From Candidatus Gastranaerophilales bacterium (GTDB taxonomy: Bacteria > Cyanobacteriota > Vampirovibrionia > Gastranaerophilales > Gastranaerophilaceae): a stretch of DNA of 37,255 nt. The notes under the pieces are model-generated. The model saw only the letters and a program-made list of their open reading frames with translations, had not been told where the DNA came from and did no database searches. A program made the translations under genes and the position numbers. Positions 6,612-23,402 of this stretch are shown one piece after another. Positions within the stretch are counted from its first letter, which is position 1. Each line of letters opens with the position of its first letter. Where the stretch lies: the NCBI GenBank assembly GCA_905234865.1, contig CAJOJE010000019.1, forward strand, positions 1 through 37,255. Reading direction: 5' to 3'.

Positions 6612-8807
6612 TTAGAAAACTTTTTCAACACTCATCTCGTACGGAGTGGATTTTACCATTAGTTTCTTTCCGCCCGTTTTTACGATGTATAAACTATCCG
6701 TATCACTTTCTTTTGCAAGTTGCGATTCAATATCCGTATCTTTAACTTCCATATCTCCAAAGTTGTATAAAACATAGATATCATCTTGAATATATCCTAC
6801 AAGAGATGTTGTTCCTTCAAACTTTGCAAGATACAAACCCCTTGTTTCCGTTAATTTGGACGACGAAACAATTGTAGCCGATTCTTCATTCGTATTTTGA
6901 TTATCGGAATTATAATCCGCAACAACATTGTTATCAGAGTATGTCGAATCAATCGGCGTTAATAATTCTTGAAGCATAGTGTCCTCATCTTCAATATTTA
7001 CCGTTTGTCCGTAATCTTCGGGGGCTTCATTCAATGCCTGATAAACGGCGCTTGTTTCGGGTGGATTGTCTGATTCGTTTTGAATATTGTTTTCTTCCGG
7101 ATAATTTGTTTCGTATTTATCCGTATCGTAGTTATCGTATTCTTGATTTTGATAATTCGCTTCATAATCCGAATTATCATAAGATGTTGTTTCGTTATTT
7201 TGTGTCGGAGCATAATCGGGAATGGTATCCAATATTTCAGGCTCATAATAATTATCGTTTGCTCTTACATCATAATTTGTTTCAGGTATCACACCGCCCC
7301 TTACGGGAGTTGTTGTCGAGTATGTATCTTCAAAATTACTTGCGGACGTTGCAAATGTTTGAGCAAAATTATTTTGTTGAACATTGGAATTTGCCTGATA
7401 AACGGGCGCTTGCGGTTGTTCTGTTTGTAATCGGTCGGAAAAATCGGGGCGGGTTTGAACATTTTGGTTTATTTTGTTTTCAGCCGCTCTTTGATTTAGC
7501 AATTCCCTGATATTTGAATTATCGCTTGCGATTTGTTCATTATACGCTTTTTGTTTGATATTTCTTCTGACAAGCAAAAATACGCTTGCCAAAAATAAGA
7601 AAATTCCGATTGAGCCTATTAATAAATATAAATTTGTTTGATTTTCCTCTAAAGGAGAATTTTGTTCTTGAACGGTTGCCGTTATGCTTTTGCTGTCGTC
7701 GAGGTTTTCATTTAAAACTTCTTCCGTATTTTCGTTTTCAAAAGAGACATCCGTTGCTTCTTTTACGGCAAGTTCATTTTCGTATTTTTTAACTTCATTA
7801 TCGGTATCAGGAACGGCCTTTGAAGTATCTACCGTTTTTTCCGATGTTGTTTGAGATGTTTTTTGCGTTTGGACGGTTTTTGAAGCTTGTTTTTCCGTTT
7901 CTTTATTTACCTGAACGGGTGTTTTTGCTGTTTGAGCCGACGCATTTTTAGATGCTGCGTTTTTCGTTTTTGGCGCATTGTTTGCCGATTTTACCGCCGT
8001 TGTTTTTGATGTCGAACCTGTTTTTCCTGCAACCGTTGTTTTATTGGATTTAGTTTGTTCGTTTGCGGAAGAATTGTTTTTATTTACCGCAGTTGCTTTA
8101 TTCGATTGACTTTGTGAAGGTAAATCGGCAAGCAGAGCAAGTTTTTGAATAGGATTTGTCAATGTTTTCGTTTGCTGCTGTTTTGTTTCCGTTTTTATTT
8201 GAGGTTTTGTATTTGTTTGAGAAGTTAATTGAGCCGCAGTTTTAGCTGCGGGTTGAACCGTTGTTTGCGCTGTTTTTTGTACGGTTGCTTGAGTTGTTTT
8301 TTGTTTATTATCAATTAAGGGAGATTGAATATTATTTGTCGCAAGTTTTTCTGCGTATCTTTCAAAAACTTTATCCAATTTAGCAAGTCTTACGGGGTCT
8401 AATTTCGGAGAAACGGAAGAATCAACCGCTTTTGTCGTTGTTGTAAGATTTAAGGGTTTTGAAGTTATGATTGCAACTTTTGTGTATCCGTTTTTTTCAT
8501 CCTGTCCCGCATAAGGGTATGTTTTAATCATAACGTTGCTTATGTCCGAAACGGGCGTAACGGATGTTACGGAATTACTTGTTTCCGGAAGTAAAAAGTA
8601 ATAAACGGTATCTGTTTTTTTAACTACTTTAACGGGTTCCGTGTAAACTTTTTGCGTATAAAGATTAACATTGTAGCTGTCTTCATTAATTTTTGATAAT
8701 TCTACTTTTAAAAGATTATTTTTATATGCACCGTCTGCGGCAAAAATAGAATTTGCGGTGCAGGCTAAAAGGGTTAGTGAGGCAAATGTCGTTAAAAATT
8801 TTTTCAT
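6612..8807 (-). CDS. Large single-pass membrane protein, AMIN-like periplasmic part and acidic cytoplasmic part
   Basis: 731 aa. Residues 1-23 form a signal peptide (likely cleaved after SIFA; an LLAC at 13-16 resembles a lipobox and leaves a lipoprotein possible). Residues 30-125 are beta-rich and resemble AMIN-type domains (VYYFLLPET, VAIITSKPLNL), a weak call. Residues 165-330 are a T/Q/K/A low-complexity linker that could span a wall. One membrane helix lies at 392-414, then RRNIKQK. The rest is Asn/Tyr/Glu-rich, ending in a small beta domain (last ~80 residues, GLYLAKFEGTTSLVGYIQDD). The plan (envelope domain, linker, helix, acidic cytoplasmic tail) recalls FimV-like assembly proteins, with no proven homology. 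The ATG at 8807 follows AGGGAC; it is divergent from era. Confidence 0.75.
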   Translation of the reverse strand: MKKFLTTFASLTLLACTANSIFAADGAYKNNLLKVELSKINEDSYNVNLYTQKVYTEPVKVVKKTDTVYYFLLPETSNSVTSVTPVSDISNVMIKTYPYAGQDEKNGYTKVAIITSKPLNLTTTTKAVDSSVSPKLDPVRLAKLDKVFERYAEKLATNNIQSPLIDNKQKTTQATVQKTAQTTVQPAAKTAAQLTSQTNTKPQIKTETKQQQTKTLTNPIQKLALLADLPSQSQSNKATAVNKNNSSANEQTKSNKTTVAGKTGSTSKTTAVKSANNAPKTKNAASKNASAQTAKTPVQVNKETEKQASKTVQTQKTSQTTSEKTVDTSKAVPDTDNEVKKYENELAVKEATDVSFENENTEEVLNENLDDSKSITATVQEQNSPLEENQTNLYLLIGSIGIFLFLASVFLLVRRNIKQKAYNEQIASDNSNIRELLNQRAAENKINQNVQTRPDFSDRLQTEQPQAPVYQANSNVQQNNFAQTFATSASNFEDTYSTTTPVRGGVIPETNYDVRANDNYYEPEILDTIPDYAPTQNNETTSYDNSDYEANYQNQEYDNYDTDKYETNYPEENNIQNESDNPPETSAVYQALNEAPEDYGQTVNIEDEDTMLQELLTPIDSTYSDNNVVADYNSDNQNTNEESATIVSSSKLTETRGLYLAKFEGTTSLVGYIQDDIYVLYNFGDMEVKDTDIESQLAKESDTDSLYIVKTGGKKLMVKSTPYEMSVEKVF

Positions 8808-8843
8808 AAATTCAAATTCGTCCCTAAATTTTGGATTTCATAG

Positions 8844-8853
8844 TACAATTATA
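8844..8853. promoter_or_regulatory. Shared -10 element of the divergent era promoter
   Basis: TACAATTATA reads as -10 TACAAT on the plus strand (8844-8849) and TATAAT on the minus strand (8853-8848). The plus -10 ends 6 bases before the era ATG, which has no Shine-Dalgarno sequence, so era mRNA is probably leaderless. The minus transcript would carry a ~34-base leader with AGGGAC. No good -35 is visible. Confidence 0.55.
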
Positions 8854-8855
8854 CT

Positions 8856-9788
8856 ATGAGAAACGAAAATTTACCAAAACTTAACAAAAAAGATTTTAAA
8901 ACGGGCTATGCCGTTATTATTGCAAGACCAAACGTCGGAAAGTCTACGCTTTTAAACTATATAACGGGGCAAAAAATAGCAATAACGACCCCCGTTGCGC
9001 AAACAACAAGAAAAAGGATAAAAGGTATTTTTACGGATGATGAAGCGCAAATAATTTTTACCGATACCCCGGGAGTTCATAAGCCTCTTAATAAATTAGG
9101 AGAATTTTTAGAACAGGAATCTATGTCTGCGCTAAAAGATGCCGATGTTGTTTTGTTTCTTGTAGATATAAACGATAAAGCAGGAAAAGGCGATACTTGG
9201 ATTGTTGAAAATTGCATTAAAAAAAATAAAACCCCCGTCATAATTGTTGCAAATAAGGTAGATTTAACAAATGACGAAGTAAAAAAAGAAGTCAATCTTT
9301 GTACTTATAAAACCCTTTTTAAAGAAAATTACCCCATCATTAAAGTTTCCGCAAAAACGGGTAAAAACGTAAATGTATTAATTGATAAAATAAAAGAATA
9401 TCTTCCTGTCTGCCCGCCTTTATATCCGATTGATACCATAACCGATCAAAATATGAGAAATATAGCTCAAGAAGTTATAAGGGAAAAAATTATTTTAAAC
9501 ACAAAAGAAGAAATTCCTCATTCCGTTGCGGTTATGATTGATGAATATAAAACAGAAGGGAACCTTGATAAAATAAAGGCCTCGATTTATGTTTCACAAA
9601 CAAGCCAAAAGGGAATAATAATCGGCAAAAACGGTTCTATGTTGAAAAAAATCGGAACGGAAGCAAGGCTTGAACTTCAAGAAATTATCGAAGGAAAAGT
9701 TTATCTCGAACTTTTTGTAAAAGTCAGAAAAAATTGGCAAAAAGATAAAAATGCGCTGAAAATGCTCGGGTATAAAGAAGATGTATAG
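8856..9788 (+). CDS. era: GTPase Era
   Basis: 310 aa, the usual Era length. The GTPase domain has G1 ARPNVGKST (23-31), DTPGVH (70-75), NKVD (133-136) and SAKTG (165-169). The C-terminal KH domain has GIIIGKNGSMLKKIG before a basic tail. Era binds the 3' end of 16S rRNA and helps mature the 30S subunit. The first P-loop residue is Ala rather than the usual Gly, which the A/G-x4-GK consensus allows. No ribosome site precedes the ATG and a -10 hexamer ends six bases upstream, which suggests leaderless initiation. It overlaps the next gene by 8 bases, and prmC follows in the same operon, so the unit serves ribosome assembly and translation. Confidence 0.97.
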   Translation: MRNENLPKLNKKDFKTGYAVIIARPNVGKSTLLNYITGQKIAITTPVAQTTRKRIKGIFTDDEAQIIFTDTPGVHKPLNKLGEFLEQESMSALKDADVVLFLVDINDKAGKGDTWIVENCIKKNKTPVIIVANKVDLTNDEVKKEVNLCTYKTLFKENYPIIKVSAKTGKNVNVLIDKIKEYLPVCPPLYPIDTITDQNMRNIAQEVIREKIILNTKEEIPHSVAVMIDEYKTEGNLDKIKASIYVSQTSQKGIIIGKNGSMLKKIGTEARLELQEIIEGKVYLELFVKVRKNWQKDKNALKMLGYKEDV

Positions 9789-18406: not shown

Positions 18407-18472
18407 ATGAAAAGTTCAGACAAGTTACTCAGGACAAAATTTATGGGTATTGACTTAAGCTCAGGCTTATAG
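18407..18472 (+). CDS. 21-codon mini-ORF running into the repeat cluster
   Basis: The ATG at 18407 follows a good ribosome site (AAAGGAT at 18394-18400, six-base spacing). The frame encodes 21 residues beginning MKSSDKLLRTKFMGIDLS and stops at TAG 18470-18472, inside the first repeat unit. An AT-rich stretch with TATATT-like hexamers lies upstream. It may be a true mini-gene, or the 5' end of a longer gene cut by the repeat cluster. I recognise no family. Only the initiation signals support it. Confidence 0.35.
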   Translation: MKSSDKLLRTKFMGIDLSSGL

Positions 18473-18774
18473 TGTACCTCGATTGTCAAATTCATCATTT
18501 GCCAATCTGCGGCACAAGGATGGCTTATAGTGTACCTCGATTGGTGGAACTTTTGGTCAACGGTTACAGTCGAAAGCTCATCGCTTCCGACTTTCACCCC
18601 GGCTCACGCAGCGGCACAAGGTTGGCTTATAGTGTACCTCGATTGTCAAATTCATCATTTGCCAATCTGCGGCACAAGGTTGGCTTATAGTGTACCTCGA
18701 TTGTCAAATAAGGTTGGCTTATAGTGTACCTCGATTGTCAAATTCATCATTTGCCAATCTGCGGCACAAGGTTG
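18464..18774. repeat. Irregular 58-bp tandem repeat cluster
   Basis: A 22-base core (begins GGCTTATAGTGTACCTCG) occurs at 18464, 18522, 18624, 18682 and 18716. The full unit is 58 bases (core plus a 36-base tail ending GCGGCACAAGGTT). Spacings are 58, 102, 58 and 34: the second tail is replaced by a longer segment with a 10-bp stem-loop (18568-18592), and the fourth tail is truncated. Tails are copies, not unique spacers, so this is not CRISPR. With the ldh terminator and the mini-ORF it fills the stretch from 18304 to 18775. The last tail ends 1-2 bases before the stop codon of the minus-strand peptidase gene. Confidence 0.9.
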
Positions 18775-20993: not shown

Positions 20994-21878
20994 TTAAAAA
21001 AGTGATTTCTGAAAAGGGGTTATATTATCAAAAGTTTTAAAATGTGTTTTTGAAACGTTTGATAATTCAAGTTCTCCGTATTTGGCAACAAATTGTTTAC
21101 CTTTTATTAAAACGTTTTCTCCTGCACCTTTAGGAAATTCAATTCCGTAGTCAAACGAAAGTTTTGAAATTTTTTTACAAAACTCCGCTCTTGCTAAAAT
21201 TGAAGCGCATGCAACAGCAGTATCGCTTTCCGCTCTCGGCATTTGTATCAGTTTTAAATTTTTCCCTTTAGTTTTAAGAGCATTCAGAATAAGGCTCTCA
21301 TCGCCGAATTTATCGGATATTCCTATTTTGCATTCGGTTTTGTTTAATATATTTTCAAAAACGGTGCTGTGCCCCCAAGCTAAAAGTTTATTCAAATTTT
21401 TAAACTTTGCATAAAGTTCGTTATATTTTTTATTCCCTATTGTTACAACATCATAAATTGAATTTTCTTTTATGACGTCAGCCAATTTTAAAATTTTCTT
21501 ATCATCAAGCTTTTTAGAGTCTTGAGCGCCCATATCTTTCATTTTTTGCGCTTTTTCTTCCGTTAAATAACATCCCGCTATAACAAGAGGTCCGAAAAAA
21601 TCGCCCTTGCCCGATTCGTCAACCCCGATGTGCGGATATTCGATTATTTGTTCTGTTTTGTTTTCTTCTTTTACGTTAAAAAGTTTTTCTTTAATATATT
21701 CAATCTCTTTTCCCTGAACAACAACTTTTCCCGATGTATAAAAAGTTACCTGCCAATTTTTATTTTTTGCCTGAAAAAAAGTATGTTGGGGAGTTGAAAA
21801 AGCGCATTCTTCTTTCGATAAAACATCTTTATAATGAACAACAAACGATTTATCGATTGAAGTCGTAAAAGTACCCAT
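20994..21878 (-). CDS. rnhC: Ribonuclease HIII
   Basis: 294 aa. An N-terminal TBP-like domain (about 1-75, with SGKVVVQGKEIEYIK), typical of RNase HIII, precedes the RNase H fold. The catalytic motif is GVDESGKGDFFGPLVIAG (D87, E88), the D-E-S-G-K-G-D form of HIII rather than HII. AESDTAVACASILARAEF supplies further active-site residues. The enzyme removes RNA from RNA-DNA hybrids during replication and repair. The ATG at 21878 has AAGGAG inside the end of the upstream PHP gene, and the stop and start are 2 bases apart, so the two are translated together. No clear terminator follows. Confidence 0.94.
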   Translation of the reverse strand: MGTFTTSIDKSFVVHYKDVLSKEECAFSTPQHTFFQAKNKNWQVTFYTSGKVVVQGKEIEYIKEKLFNVKEENKTEQIIEYPHIGVDESGKGDFFGPLVIAGCYLTEEKAQKMKDMGAQDSKKLDDKKILKLADVIKENSIYDVVTIGNKKYNELYAKFKNLNKLLAWGHSTVFENILNKTECKIGISDKFGDESLILNALKTKGKNLKLIQMPRAESDTAVACASILARAEFCKKISKLSFDYGIEFPKGAGENVLIKGKQFVAKYGELELSNVSKTHFKTFDNITPFQKSLF

Positions 21879-21880
21879 TT

Positions 21881-22516
21881 TTATCTGTTCTCCTTAATTA
21901 AAGAAGTGTGACAATCTTCTCCGCCCGTTTTAATTAAATTATATTTTTCGGCAAGTTTTAAAACCGTTTTCCTTGAATGAAATTTAACAACTCTTGTAAG
22001 CCTGTTATAGGGATAATATACTTCAATTCCGTCCAGCCCGTATGAAACAAGTTTTTGAACAAACCTGTCCAAGGAAATACACCAATAACAGCAAGGATGT
22101 GCTAAAACTGCGATTCCGCCGGCATTATGAATTGCTTCGATAACTTTTTTCGGGTTTCTCGAAGTAAAAATTCTTTTTAAAGTAGAAAATTTTCCCCTGT
22201 CAAATTTTGCGGTTAAGGATTTTAATTCTTCATTATTTATATCAACTCCGTACCCTAAAATATGAGGCAGGTTCAAATCGATAAAACAATCGAATTCAAT
22301 TCCTATTATCATATTCGGAGGAATTTTTTCAAGAGTATAATACCCTTCAAACGTGTTGTGGTCGGTAATTGAAAAAAGTTCAAGATTTAGCTTTTCCGCT
22401 TCTTGTATTAAGTCAAGAAAATCAACACGACCGTCCGAAAAAGTCGAATGAATATGAAGATTGACTTTTGTGAAAAAATCTTCTTTATTAAATTTATGCA
22501 ACATTTTATTCAGCAT
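21881..22516 (-). CDS. PHP-domain phosphoesterase
   Basis: 211 aa. PHP metal-binding motifs appear in order: NLHIHSTFSDG (19-29), ITDHNTFEGYY, GIEFD, VLAHPCCYWC and GGEDCH near the C-terminus. Stand-alone PHP proteins of this kind hydrolyse small phosphoesters such as nucleoside 3',5'-bisphosphates or trim RNA 5' ends; the exact substrate is not visible. I start it at ATG 22516. An in-frame TTG at 22531 lies inside the TATAAT element and cannot be on the transcript. The -10 ends six bases before the ATG and there is no ribosome site, so the mRNA is probably leaderless. rnhC follows in the operon, which suggests a nucleic-acid turnover role. Confidence 0.88.
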   Translation of the reverse strand: MLNKMLHKFNKEDFFTKVNLHIHSTFSDGRVDFLDLIQEAEKLNLELFSITDHNTFEGYYTLEKIPPNMIIGIEFDCFIDLNLPHILGYGVDINNEELKSLTAKFDRGKFSTLKRIFTSRNPKKVIEAIHNAGGIAVLAHPCCYWCISLDRFVQKLVSYGLDGIEVYYPYNRLTRVVKFHSRKTVLKLAEKYNLIKTGGEDCHTSLIKENR

Positions 22517-22518
22517 GA

Positions 22519-22528
22519 TATAATTATA
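22519..22528. promoter_or_regulatory. Palindromic -10 element shared by divergent genes
   Basis: TATAATTATA is a perfect palindrome giving TATAAT on both strands: 22519-22524 for the plus membrane-protein gene (which has an AAGGAAG site) and 22528-22523 for the minus PHP gene (leaderless). Two polymerases cannot use it at once, so the two directions should compete. Confidence 0.6.
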
Positions 22529-22547
22529 CAAAAAAAAGGAAGAATTT

Positions 22548-23402
22548 ATGGAAGAAAAAATTTACGCTCTGGAGAATGCTCCGAAATTGGGAGTTTTAAA
22601 GTCCGTTTATATCGGATATTGTTCACTTTTTAAAAATTTAAAACAGTTTATAAAGTTTTGTTATCCGGTTATACCTTTGCTTGTAATATGCTTCATTCCG
22701 GCATTATTGGACTTGACTAAATCTTTATCCCCGATTGCGCTGTTGGGCGCAGCTTTCTTGTTGGCAATCGTCGGGATAGCTTGTACGTGTTTTGGTTTTT
22801 GGAAATTTTTACAAGGAATTGTGGCAGTTTCATATTTTGCAAAAGATATTTATGAAAATAAACCTGTTCAAAATTTTACGACCTATTTTAAATATGTTCA
22901 GGCGCACACAAAAAGTTATGTTAAACTTTGGCTTCAACTTTGCTTGGCTTCCATAGTTTTTGCAATAGGTATTGTCGGGCTTATTTTCTTGAGCGTTCTT
23001 GCACTCCGTTATATAATACAAGACCCGAAGGTTGCAATAGGCGTTCAAACTCTTGTTGTTACCGCCATAGCAATTATTTTAGTTCCTTTATGGATTGTAT
23101 TACTTTCAAATATCCCCGCAATTTTTTGGGCATATAACGATAAAACCTACCCGCTAAATTCAATCTCCGAATCAATTAATGCGGCATACAAACATCCGTT
23201 TACTTTGGTCGGTGCGGTAATATTAATTAATTTGCCATGGGCTGTTGCCGAACAATTGTTTAATTTTATGGCGCCTCCTTTATTAAACAACTTATATGCG
23301 ACATCCGGCATGCTGGTTCTTGGAACGCTTGTATTTGTAATTTCAACATACACGTTCTCTTATGTTTATACAAGATATCATTTTGAGTTTATAAAAAAGT
23401 AG
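22548..23402 (+). CDS. Multi-pass membrane protein of unknown function
   Basis: 284 aa with six hydrophobic segments, roughly at residues 38-55, 62-88, 131-155, 165-195, 218-236 and 249-272, and short cytoplasmic ends. The N-terminal MEEKIYALENAPKLGVLKS is polar. I know no family name; the overall pattern (six helices, DKTYPLNSISESINAAYKHP near the middle) recalls unnamed integral membrane proteins of the DUF975 or DUF4013 type, a loose resemblance. The ATG at 22548 follows AAAGGAAG. It shares a palindromic -10 element with the divergent PHP gene. No transporter or enzyme motif is seen. Confidence 0.75.
   Translation: MEEKIYALENAPKLGVLKSVYIGYCSLFKNLKQFIKFCYPVIPLLVICFIPALLDLTKSLSPIALLGAAFLLAIVGIACTCFGFWKFLQGIVAVSYFAKDIYENKPVQNFTTYFKYVQAHTKSYVKLWLQLCLASIVFAIGIVGLIFLSVLALRYIIQDPKVAIGVQTLVVTAIAIILVPLWIVLLSNIPAIFWAYNDKTYPLNSISESINAAYKHPFTLVGAVILINLPWAVAEQLFNFMAPPLLNNLYATSGMLVLGTLVFVISTYTFSYVYTRYHFEFIKK

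Follow-up and report, generated by a model that had tools for sequence, protein, structure and literature searches.

A palindromic −10 element predicted to serve two divergent genes, one of them leaderless, in Candidatus Gastranaerophilales

The palindrome TATAATTATA at positions 22519–22528 of the 37,255-nucleotide stretch of DNA analyzed here (the window) is quite likely a single bidirectional core promoter, predicted from sequence to give a leaderless mRNA leftward and a leadered mRNA rightward and to co-express the genes on its two sides.

Results

The genes on either side

The palindrome lies between the following genes.

21881–22516, − strand: PHP-domain protein of 211 aa, PF02811, identified by Pfam match and relatives
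20994–21878, − strand: rnhC, ribonuclease HIII, downstream of PHP after a 2-bp gap, TIGR00716 above cut-off
22548–23402, + strand: fast-evolving polytopic membrane protein of 284 aa, no Pfam family

The first-pass annotation of this DNA had suggested that both outputs are real genes, and both do look real. In addition to its PF02811 domain, the PHP protein has relatives with which its N-terminus aligns. It was matched in 49 of 58 genomes at an E value of at most 1.1e-41 and at any strength in all 58 (own genome included in both counts), although nine of the matches are weak and may be to other PHP proteins. Among 14 named loci matching the PHP protein, nine bear the name Candidatus Gastranaerophilales and four 'uncultured bacterium', with one weak match named Bacillota. 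The membrane protein was matched in six of the eight other genomes of the genus; across 33 genomes its gene was found by sequence match in seven, every one in the genus. PHP-rnhC as a family-wide operon was ruled out, as rnhC adjoins PHP in loci L014–L021 and in none of L022–L043. Elsewhere in the window, overlapping ORFs with repeated GTR.AYSVPRL peptides at 18470–18725 indicate a short direct repeat after an LDH-like gene.

A probable shared −10 between two start codons

The two divergent genes are separated by 31 bp (PHP ATG at 22516–22514, − strand; membrane-protein ATG at 22548, + strand). The features in and at the edge of this gap are listed below.

22519–22528, unstranded: palindromic shared −10, TATAATTATA, whose two hexamers overlap by 2 bp; assigned by its placement as compared with −10 positions across the genome
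22523–22528, − strand: −10 in the PHP-rnhC direction, TATAAT, starting at −12 from the ATG, exactly at the leaderless peak, with a T-tract before it
22519–22524, + strand: −10 in the membrane-protein direction, TATAAT, starting at −29 from the ATG, inside the wide range of positions seen for leadered genes
22516–22518, + strand: TGn motif extending the + strand −10 (TGATATAAT), read from the sequence; the T of the motif lies opposite the A of the PHP ATG
22516, − strand: predicted transcription start site (TSS) of the PHP mRNA at the A of the ATG (leaderless), from the −10 spacing
22531, + strand: TSS predicted from the −10 spacing for the membrane-protein mRNA, whose leader would be 17 nt long; 15 bp from the PHP TSS
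22536–22540, + strand: Shine–Dalgarno (SD) sequence AAGGA of the membrane-protein gene, starting at −12 (genome SD peak, −11 to −13)

A −10 reading TATAAT on both strands and driving both genes, with no leader on the PHP-rnhC side and a normal one on the membrane-protein side, had been proposed in the first-pass annotation. The two hexamers are confirmed at 22519–22524 (+) and 22528–22523 (−), where they share 2 bp, and each direction enters a conserved gene (PHP-rnhC or the membrane gene). Sequence and comparison also support the sharing of this −10 by the two divergent genes and the leaderless start of PHP, with TATAAT at exactly −12, the peak of the genome sample, and no SD motif upstream of the start at 22516 on inspection of the sequence. 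The leader of the membrane-protein gene is likewise supported, by TATAAT at −29 and by AAGGA at 22536–22540. The + strand TATAAT is directly preceded by TGA, TGn being an extension motif of −10 elements. No good −35 region was seen by eye in either direction, and the site was absent from the output of a promoter scan on both strands.

The string TATAATTATA is present once in the window (expectation 0.16 in shuffles, which are first-order Markov resamples throughout; at least one copy in 15 of 100) and as 13 copies in the 1.87-Mb genome, compared to 22 for the reversed control. When the 13 copies were placed against ORFs of at least 90 aa, seven lay well inside, four overlapped an edge (the window site included) and two lay outside any, which rules out the palindrome alone as a promoter marker. 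Because it has fewer copies than its reversed control, the string alone is weak evidence; placement is what counts.

These counts bear on an alternative in which one direction only uses the element, the palindrome being incidental AT-rich symmetry. The PHP-rnhC promoter would then lie further upstream, and the membrane gene would start at the palindrome or nearby. TATAAT is easily near-symmetric, and the seven of 13 genomic copies well inside ORFs fit such incidental symmetry. Several lines of evidence given below and in the next two sections make this alternative unlikely. The promoter scan lists nothing for PHP nearer than ~360 bp upstream, and no operon reads into PHP, because its upstream neighbor is divergent.

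Leaderless genes as a class

PHP sits exactly on the leaderless −12 peak. In 837 kb sampled from its own genome, a −10 (at least five of six positions) lies at exactly −12 before 41 of 397 first genes, and an SD is found for one of these 41 compared to 149 of 340 other first genes; because the gene caller is simple (a codon score plus start rules rewarding ATG and SD), the leaderless-gene counts are approximate and some starts are wrong. In the sample from G014, the −12 class comprises 25 of 262 first genes (SD in none of 25 versus 99 of 226 others), and in that from G002 and G005 it comprises 17 of 200 (SD in one of 17 versus 76 of 174 others). The start codon of −12 class genes is always ATG in all three samples, though the gene caller favors ATG. 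TATAAT-N6-ATG was more frequent than TATAAT-N9-ATG in 35 of 35 family genomes, with totals of 3356 and 1672, respectively.

The excess of TATAAT-N6-ATG and the scarcity of SD in the −12 class therefore indicate that leaderless genes are a real class here. The host lineage, which we take to be placed beside the Cyanobacteria, shows a predicted mixture of SD-led and leaderless genes. The position of the PHP TATAAT exactly at the leaderless peak, with no SD, argues against a PHP-rnhC promoter further upstream and for transcription of PHP from the palindrome.

Conservation of the gene pair and of overlapping −10s

The PHP–membrane pair is, as judged from sequence comparison, conserved in Candidatus Gastranaerophilales. 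Outside the genus, a divergent ORF lies within 300 bp of PHP in 24 of 32 PHP loci. The 20 such ORFs examined encode proteins with 5–8 TM-like stretches, and comparison of profiles (made without L032, whose N-terminus was cut short in the gene call, and L039, which is short) with the genus membrane family gave 91.9% for 13 of the 20 (124 columns) and 95.4% for another five (129 columns). The shared divergent TM protein and the profile matches thus point to an old pair with a fast-evolving membrane protein.

Overlapping opposite −10s were found in 25 of 27 PHP–membrane intergenic regions, compared to 13.3 in shuffled sequences (0 of 300 shuffles as high), the relatives compared being not independent of one another and each species being represented by one genome. 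In a reduced set lacking the six genus relatives and L100, overlap was found in 18 of 20 regions (shuffled, 9.9; 0 of 1000 as high). Omitted from these counts were L030, L032 and L033 (unlikely ORF or unsure start) and L103 (a duplicate of L035). In five of the six genus relatives, overlapping −10 pairs occur at two places in the gap, either of which may be the one in use. Recurrence of overlapping elements in so many of these regions is a further argument against use of the element in one direction only.

Two variants among the relatives were recorded as side observations. At L104:2975–2994, the PHP–membrane gap measures just 20 bp (TCTTCAACTATACTATAGTT), and each of the two genes has a −10-like hexamer at −12. 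In L024, L026, L031 and L036 (four of the 32 other-genus loci), a conserved block around TATAATAATTTTATTACAAA lies upstream of PHP, and these loci have opposite −10s in an 18-bp register.

How specific overlapping −10s are was assessed across sampled intergenic regions. In intergenic DNA, which is AT-rich, overlapping −10s are frequent. They occur in 54 of 67 divergent regions of 20–95 bp (35.5 shuffled) and in 109 of 271 tandem regions (90.5 shuffled), while convergent regions have no excess (24 of 89; 25.3 shuffled). Enrichment limited to divergent regions was therefore rejected, since tandem regions exceed shuffles too. The 15-bp register itself is not enriched across divergent regions as a whole (11 versus 9.4). 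Sampled divergent pairs with a gap of 20–45 bp number 13; eight of them include a leaderless gene, in each case with an overlapping opposite −10; with a gap of 46–64 bp, 7 of 14 have a leaderless side, five of these seven overlapping. Per gene, leaderless starts make up 10 of 26 in the 20–45-bp pairs versus 104 of 833 elsewhere, and overlapping opposite −10s accompany 9 of 10 leaderless genes in these pairs versus 53 of 104 elsewhere. Overlap alone is therefore common, and the 53 of 104 leaderless promoters elsewhere that also have it are a point in favor of one-directional use.

Origin of the compact form

The PHP–membrane gap is 31 bp here, compared to 59, 59, 58, 59, 56 and 70 bp in six relatives of the genus; a seventh genus PHP relative is without a divergent membrane-gene neighbor. 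With gaps of 56–70 bp in the six relatives, the compact form looks derived by deletion. In the genus alignment, membrane-side GTATA and PHP-side ATTATATC meet across the alignment gap, which places the deletion inside the palindrome. On this comparison, a deletion in a 56–59-bp ancestor probably fused the −10 of the membrane-gene side with that of the PHP side, and one deletion in this lineage would be the simplest reading. An RNase HIII tree with a midpoint root set the own genome, G002 and G004 apart from the remaining five (93/91), and the PHP tree gave these three no resolved placement.

Two start codons 14 bp apart

We consider it likely that the lineage has a minimal divergent promoter class in which a −10 of the TATAATTATA type lies between start codons 14 bp apart and both transcripts are leaderless, the window site being a one-sided form with the same 15-bp register. 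The pattern searched, CAT-N2-TA-N2-AT-N2-TA-N2-ATG, keeps the 15-bp register and sets a start codon at −12 in each direction. This CAT-N14-ATG pattern was found at 53 sites in 35 family genomes, versus 8 for the reversed pattern and 10 for a gap-16 control with the same core. The 23 other genomes of the same search gave 9 sites versus 5 reversed. A class-wide search gave 84 sites versus 12 reversed in 52 family genomes (11 shared with the 35) and 8 versus 3 reversed in 94 genomes of other families.

For an ORF check, 53 loci (at most one per genome, seven from other families) were fetched. ORFs of at least 60 aa opened on both sides at 28 of the 53, on one side at 18 and on neither at 7. All 28 both-ORF loci are in the family (28 of 46), and both ORFs were found at 0 of 15 gap-16 control loci (0 of 9 in the family). 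The exact TATAATTATA is present in 7 of the 28. By N-terminal sequence, the 28 loci fall into seven pair types, five of which occur in more than one genome, some across genera.

Guanylate kinase/histidine kinase: 9 loci (Pfam on one locus)
RarA-like AAA ATPase/solute-binding protein: 6 loci (Pfam on one locus)
Phosphopantetheinyl-transferase-like/O-methyltransferase-like: 5 loci (Pfam on one locus; phosphopantetheinyl-transferase match below cut-off)
Two ketoacyl-synthase-like proteins: 4 loci (Pfam on one locus)
Recombinase-like pair: 2 loci (named by eye)
Phosphatase-like/IspG-like: 1 locus (named by eye)
Small protein/RelA-like: 1 locus (named by eye)

These loci also bear on an alternative reading of the palindrome, as the operator of a dimeric regulator instead of a doubled −10. 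The perfect dyad and the identity of some CAT-N14-ATG 20-mers across genera would fit an operator. However, the 14-bp spacing is exactly that predicted by two −12 rules, the gap-16 control with the same core is not enriched, and the common part is only TA..AT..TA, with flanks that differ between gene pairs. We regard an operator as very improbable and a doubled −10 as the better account.

Other registers were also searched. For an 18-bp register between two leaderless genes there was no excess (72 versus 81 reversed); the 18-bp pattern fixes fewer bases, and its lower specificity could mask a small excess. A 21-bp register was weak (19 versus 11), and both ATGs opened ORFs at 1 of 10 loci.

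Two further sites were noted in passing. At G000:C4 60080–60109, the divergent genes of a ketoacyl-synthase-like pair stand 30 bp apart, with a TATAAT on each strand between them; by eye this pair resembles the 14-bp double-ATG pair of G014 and G030, perhaps reflecting a further shift in geometry. In the window, CATAGTACAATTATACTATG at 8839–8858 shows this double-ATG register just ahead of a gene for an Era-like GTPase (8856; named by eye). Its left ATG opens a 5-codon ORF (MKSKI) here and an 8-codon ORF (MKSKFFGE) in G002, perhaps a very short leaderless ORF preceding the gene called at 6612–8807; the 20-mer or its reverse complement is also present in G005 and G007.

Proposed mechanism and the switch question

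In the bidirectional reading, a sigma factor, presumably the housekeeping one, would bind the TATAATTATA −10 in both orientations. Transcription to the left from about 22516 would yield a PHP-rnhC mRNA beginning at its own AUG, and rightward initiation at about 22531 would yield a membrane-protein mRNA with the 17-nt leader and SD. The two RNAs would not overlap, and at most one polymerase would be expected on the site at once. At ordinary promoter strength, PHP-rnhC and the membrane gene would simply be co-expressed.

The first-pass annotation had gone further and proposed a built-in either/or switch, which was not supported. Such a bistable choice between PHP-rnhC and the membrane protein could draw on steric exclusion, as two RNA polymerases are stated to be unable to share a bidirectional promoter simultaneously (PMC12825309; here and below, statements on published work draw on excerpts of the sources). 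In the same study, however, the basal activity of five tested E. coli bidirectional promoters was too low for exclusion to matter (Warman et al. 2026; PMC12825309), which makes co-expression, not a switch, the default expectation. Also against a switch, no regulator was recognized among the PHP-rnhC and membrane-protein products; no feedback is evident, given that PHP and RNase HIII are both enzymes and that no family is known for the membrane protein. The compact geometry, moreover, is not conserved in the genus, the six relatives having the longer gaps given above. A true switch is thus highly doubtful, and we retain co-expression from one bidirectional promoter.

Discussion

Comparison with known systems

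The site resembles the bacterial bidirectional promoters described by Warman, Grainger and colleagues (PMC12825309, PMC10268837) in having a symmetric −10 on both strands and, as predicted, divergent mRNAs. Bidirectional promoters are defined in these sources by divergent TSSs 7–25 bp apart, and the TSSs predicted here, at 15 bp, lie inside this range. In E. coli, a TSS distance of 18 bp is preferred, with 10 and 23 bp also common (PMC12825309). The present site differs in its 15-bp register, its two perfect TATAAT hexamers and the leaderless state of one gene. Between two start codons at −12, the family excess is likewise for the 15-bp register and not for the 18-bp register preferred in E. 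coli.

On its leaderless side, PHP is like the leaderless genes described by Zheng et al. 2011 (PMC3160421), which have a TA-like signal ~10 bp upstream of the start: its TATAAT lies at −12, its start is ATG and an SD is absent. According to the same source, many Cyanobacteria genomes use neither SD-led nor leaderless genes, unlike the host lineage, which appears to have both.

Juxtaposed divergent leaderless promoters are reported in Mycobacterium tuberculosis, for example at prpD/Rv1129c (PMC3898074). These genes are likewise divergent neighbors, and both were mapped as leaderless; the pair differs in that two TSSs, not one shared −10, are reported in the portion of the source consulted. The divergent promoters of the EcoRV restriction-modification system also have overlapping RNA polymerase sites for divergent genes (PMC5333194). 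That pair is regulated by a C protein, and no such regulator was seen at the PHP–membrane site.

Taken singly, bidirectional promoters and leaderless genes have both been described. In the excerpts of the literature searched, covering bidirectional and leaderless promoters as well as leaderless genes and TSS maps in the order, no description was found of a −10 shared between two leaderless genes, the closest case being the divergent leaderless genes of M. tuberculosis. The site is best read as a bidirectional promoter in a leaderless variant for which those excerpts gave no description. If the 14-bp class is real, a complete two-gene promoter fits into 14 bp, with start codons, TSSs and one −10 in fixed geometry, and a lineage mixing SD-led and leaderless genes is added to those known. 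Such a naturally minimal, conserved element would then allow tests of the rules of competition at bidirectional promoters and of what leaderless translation costs.
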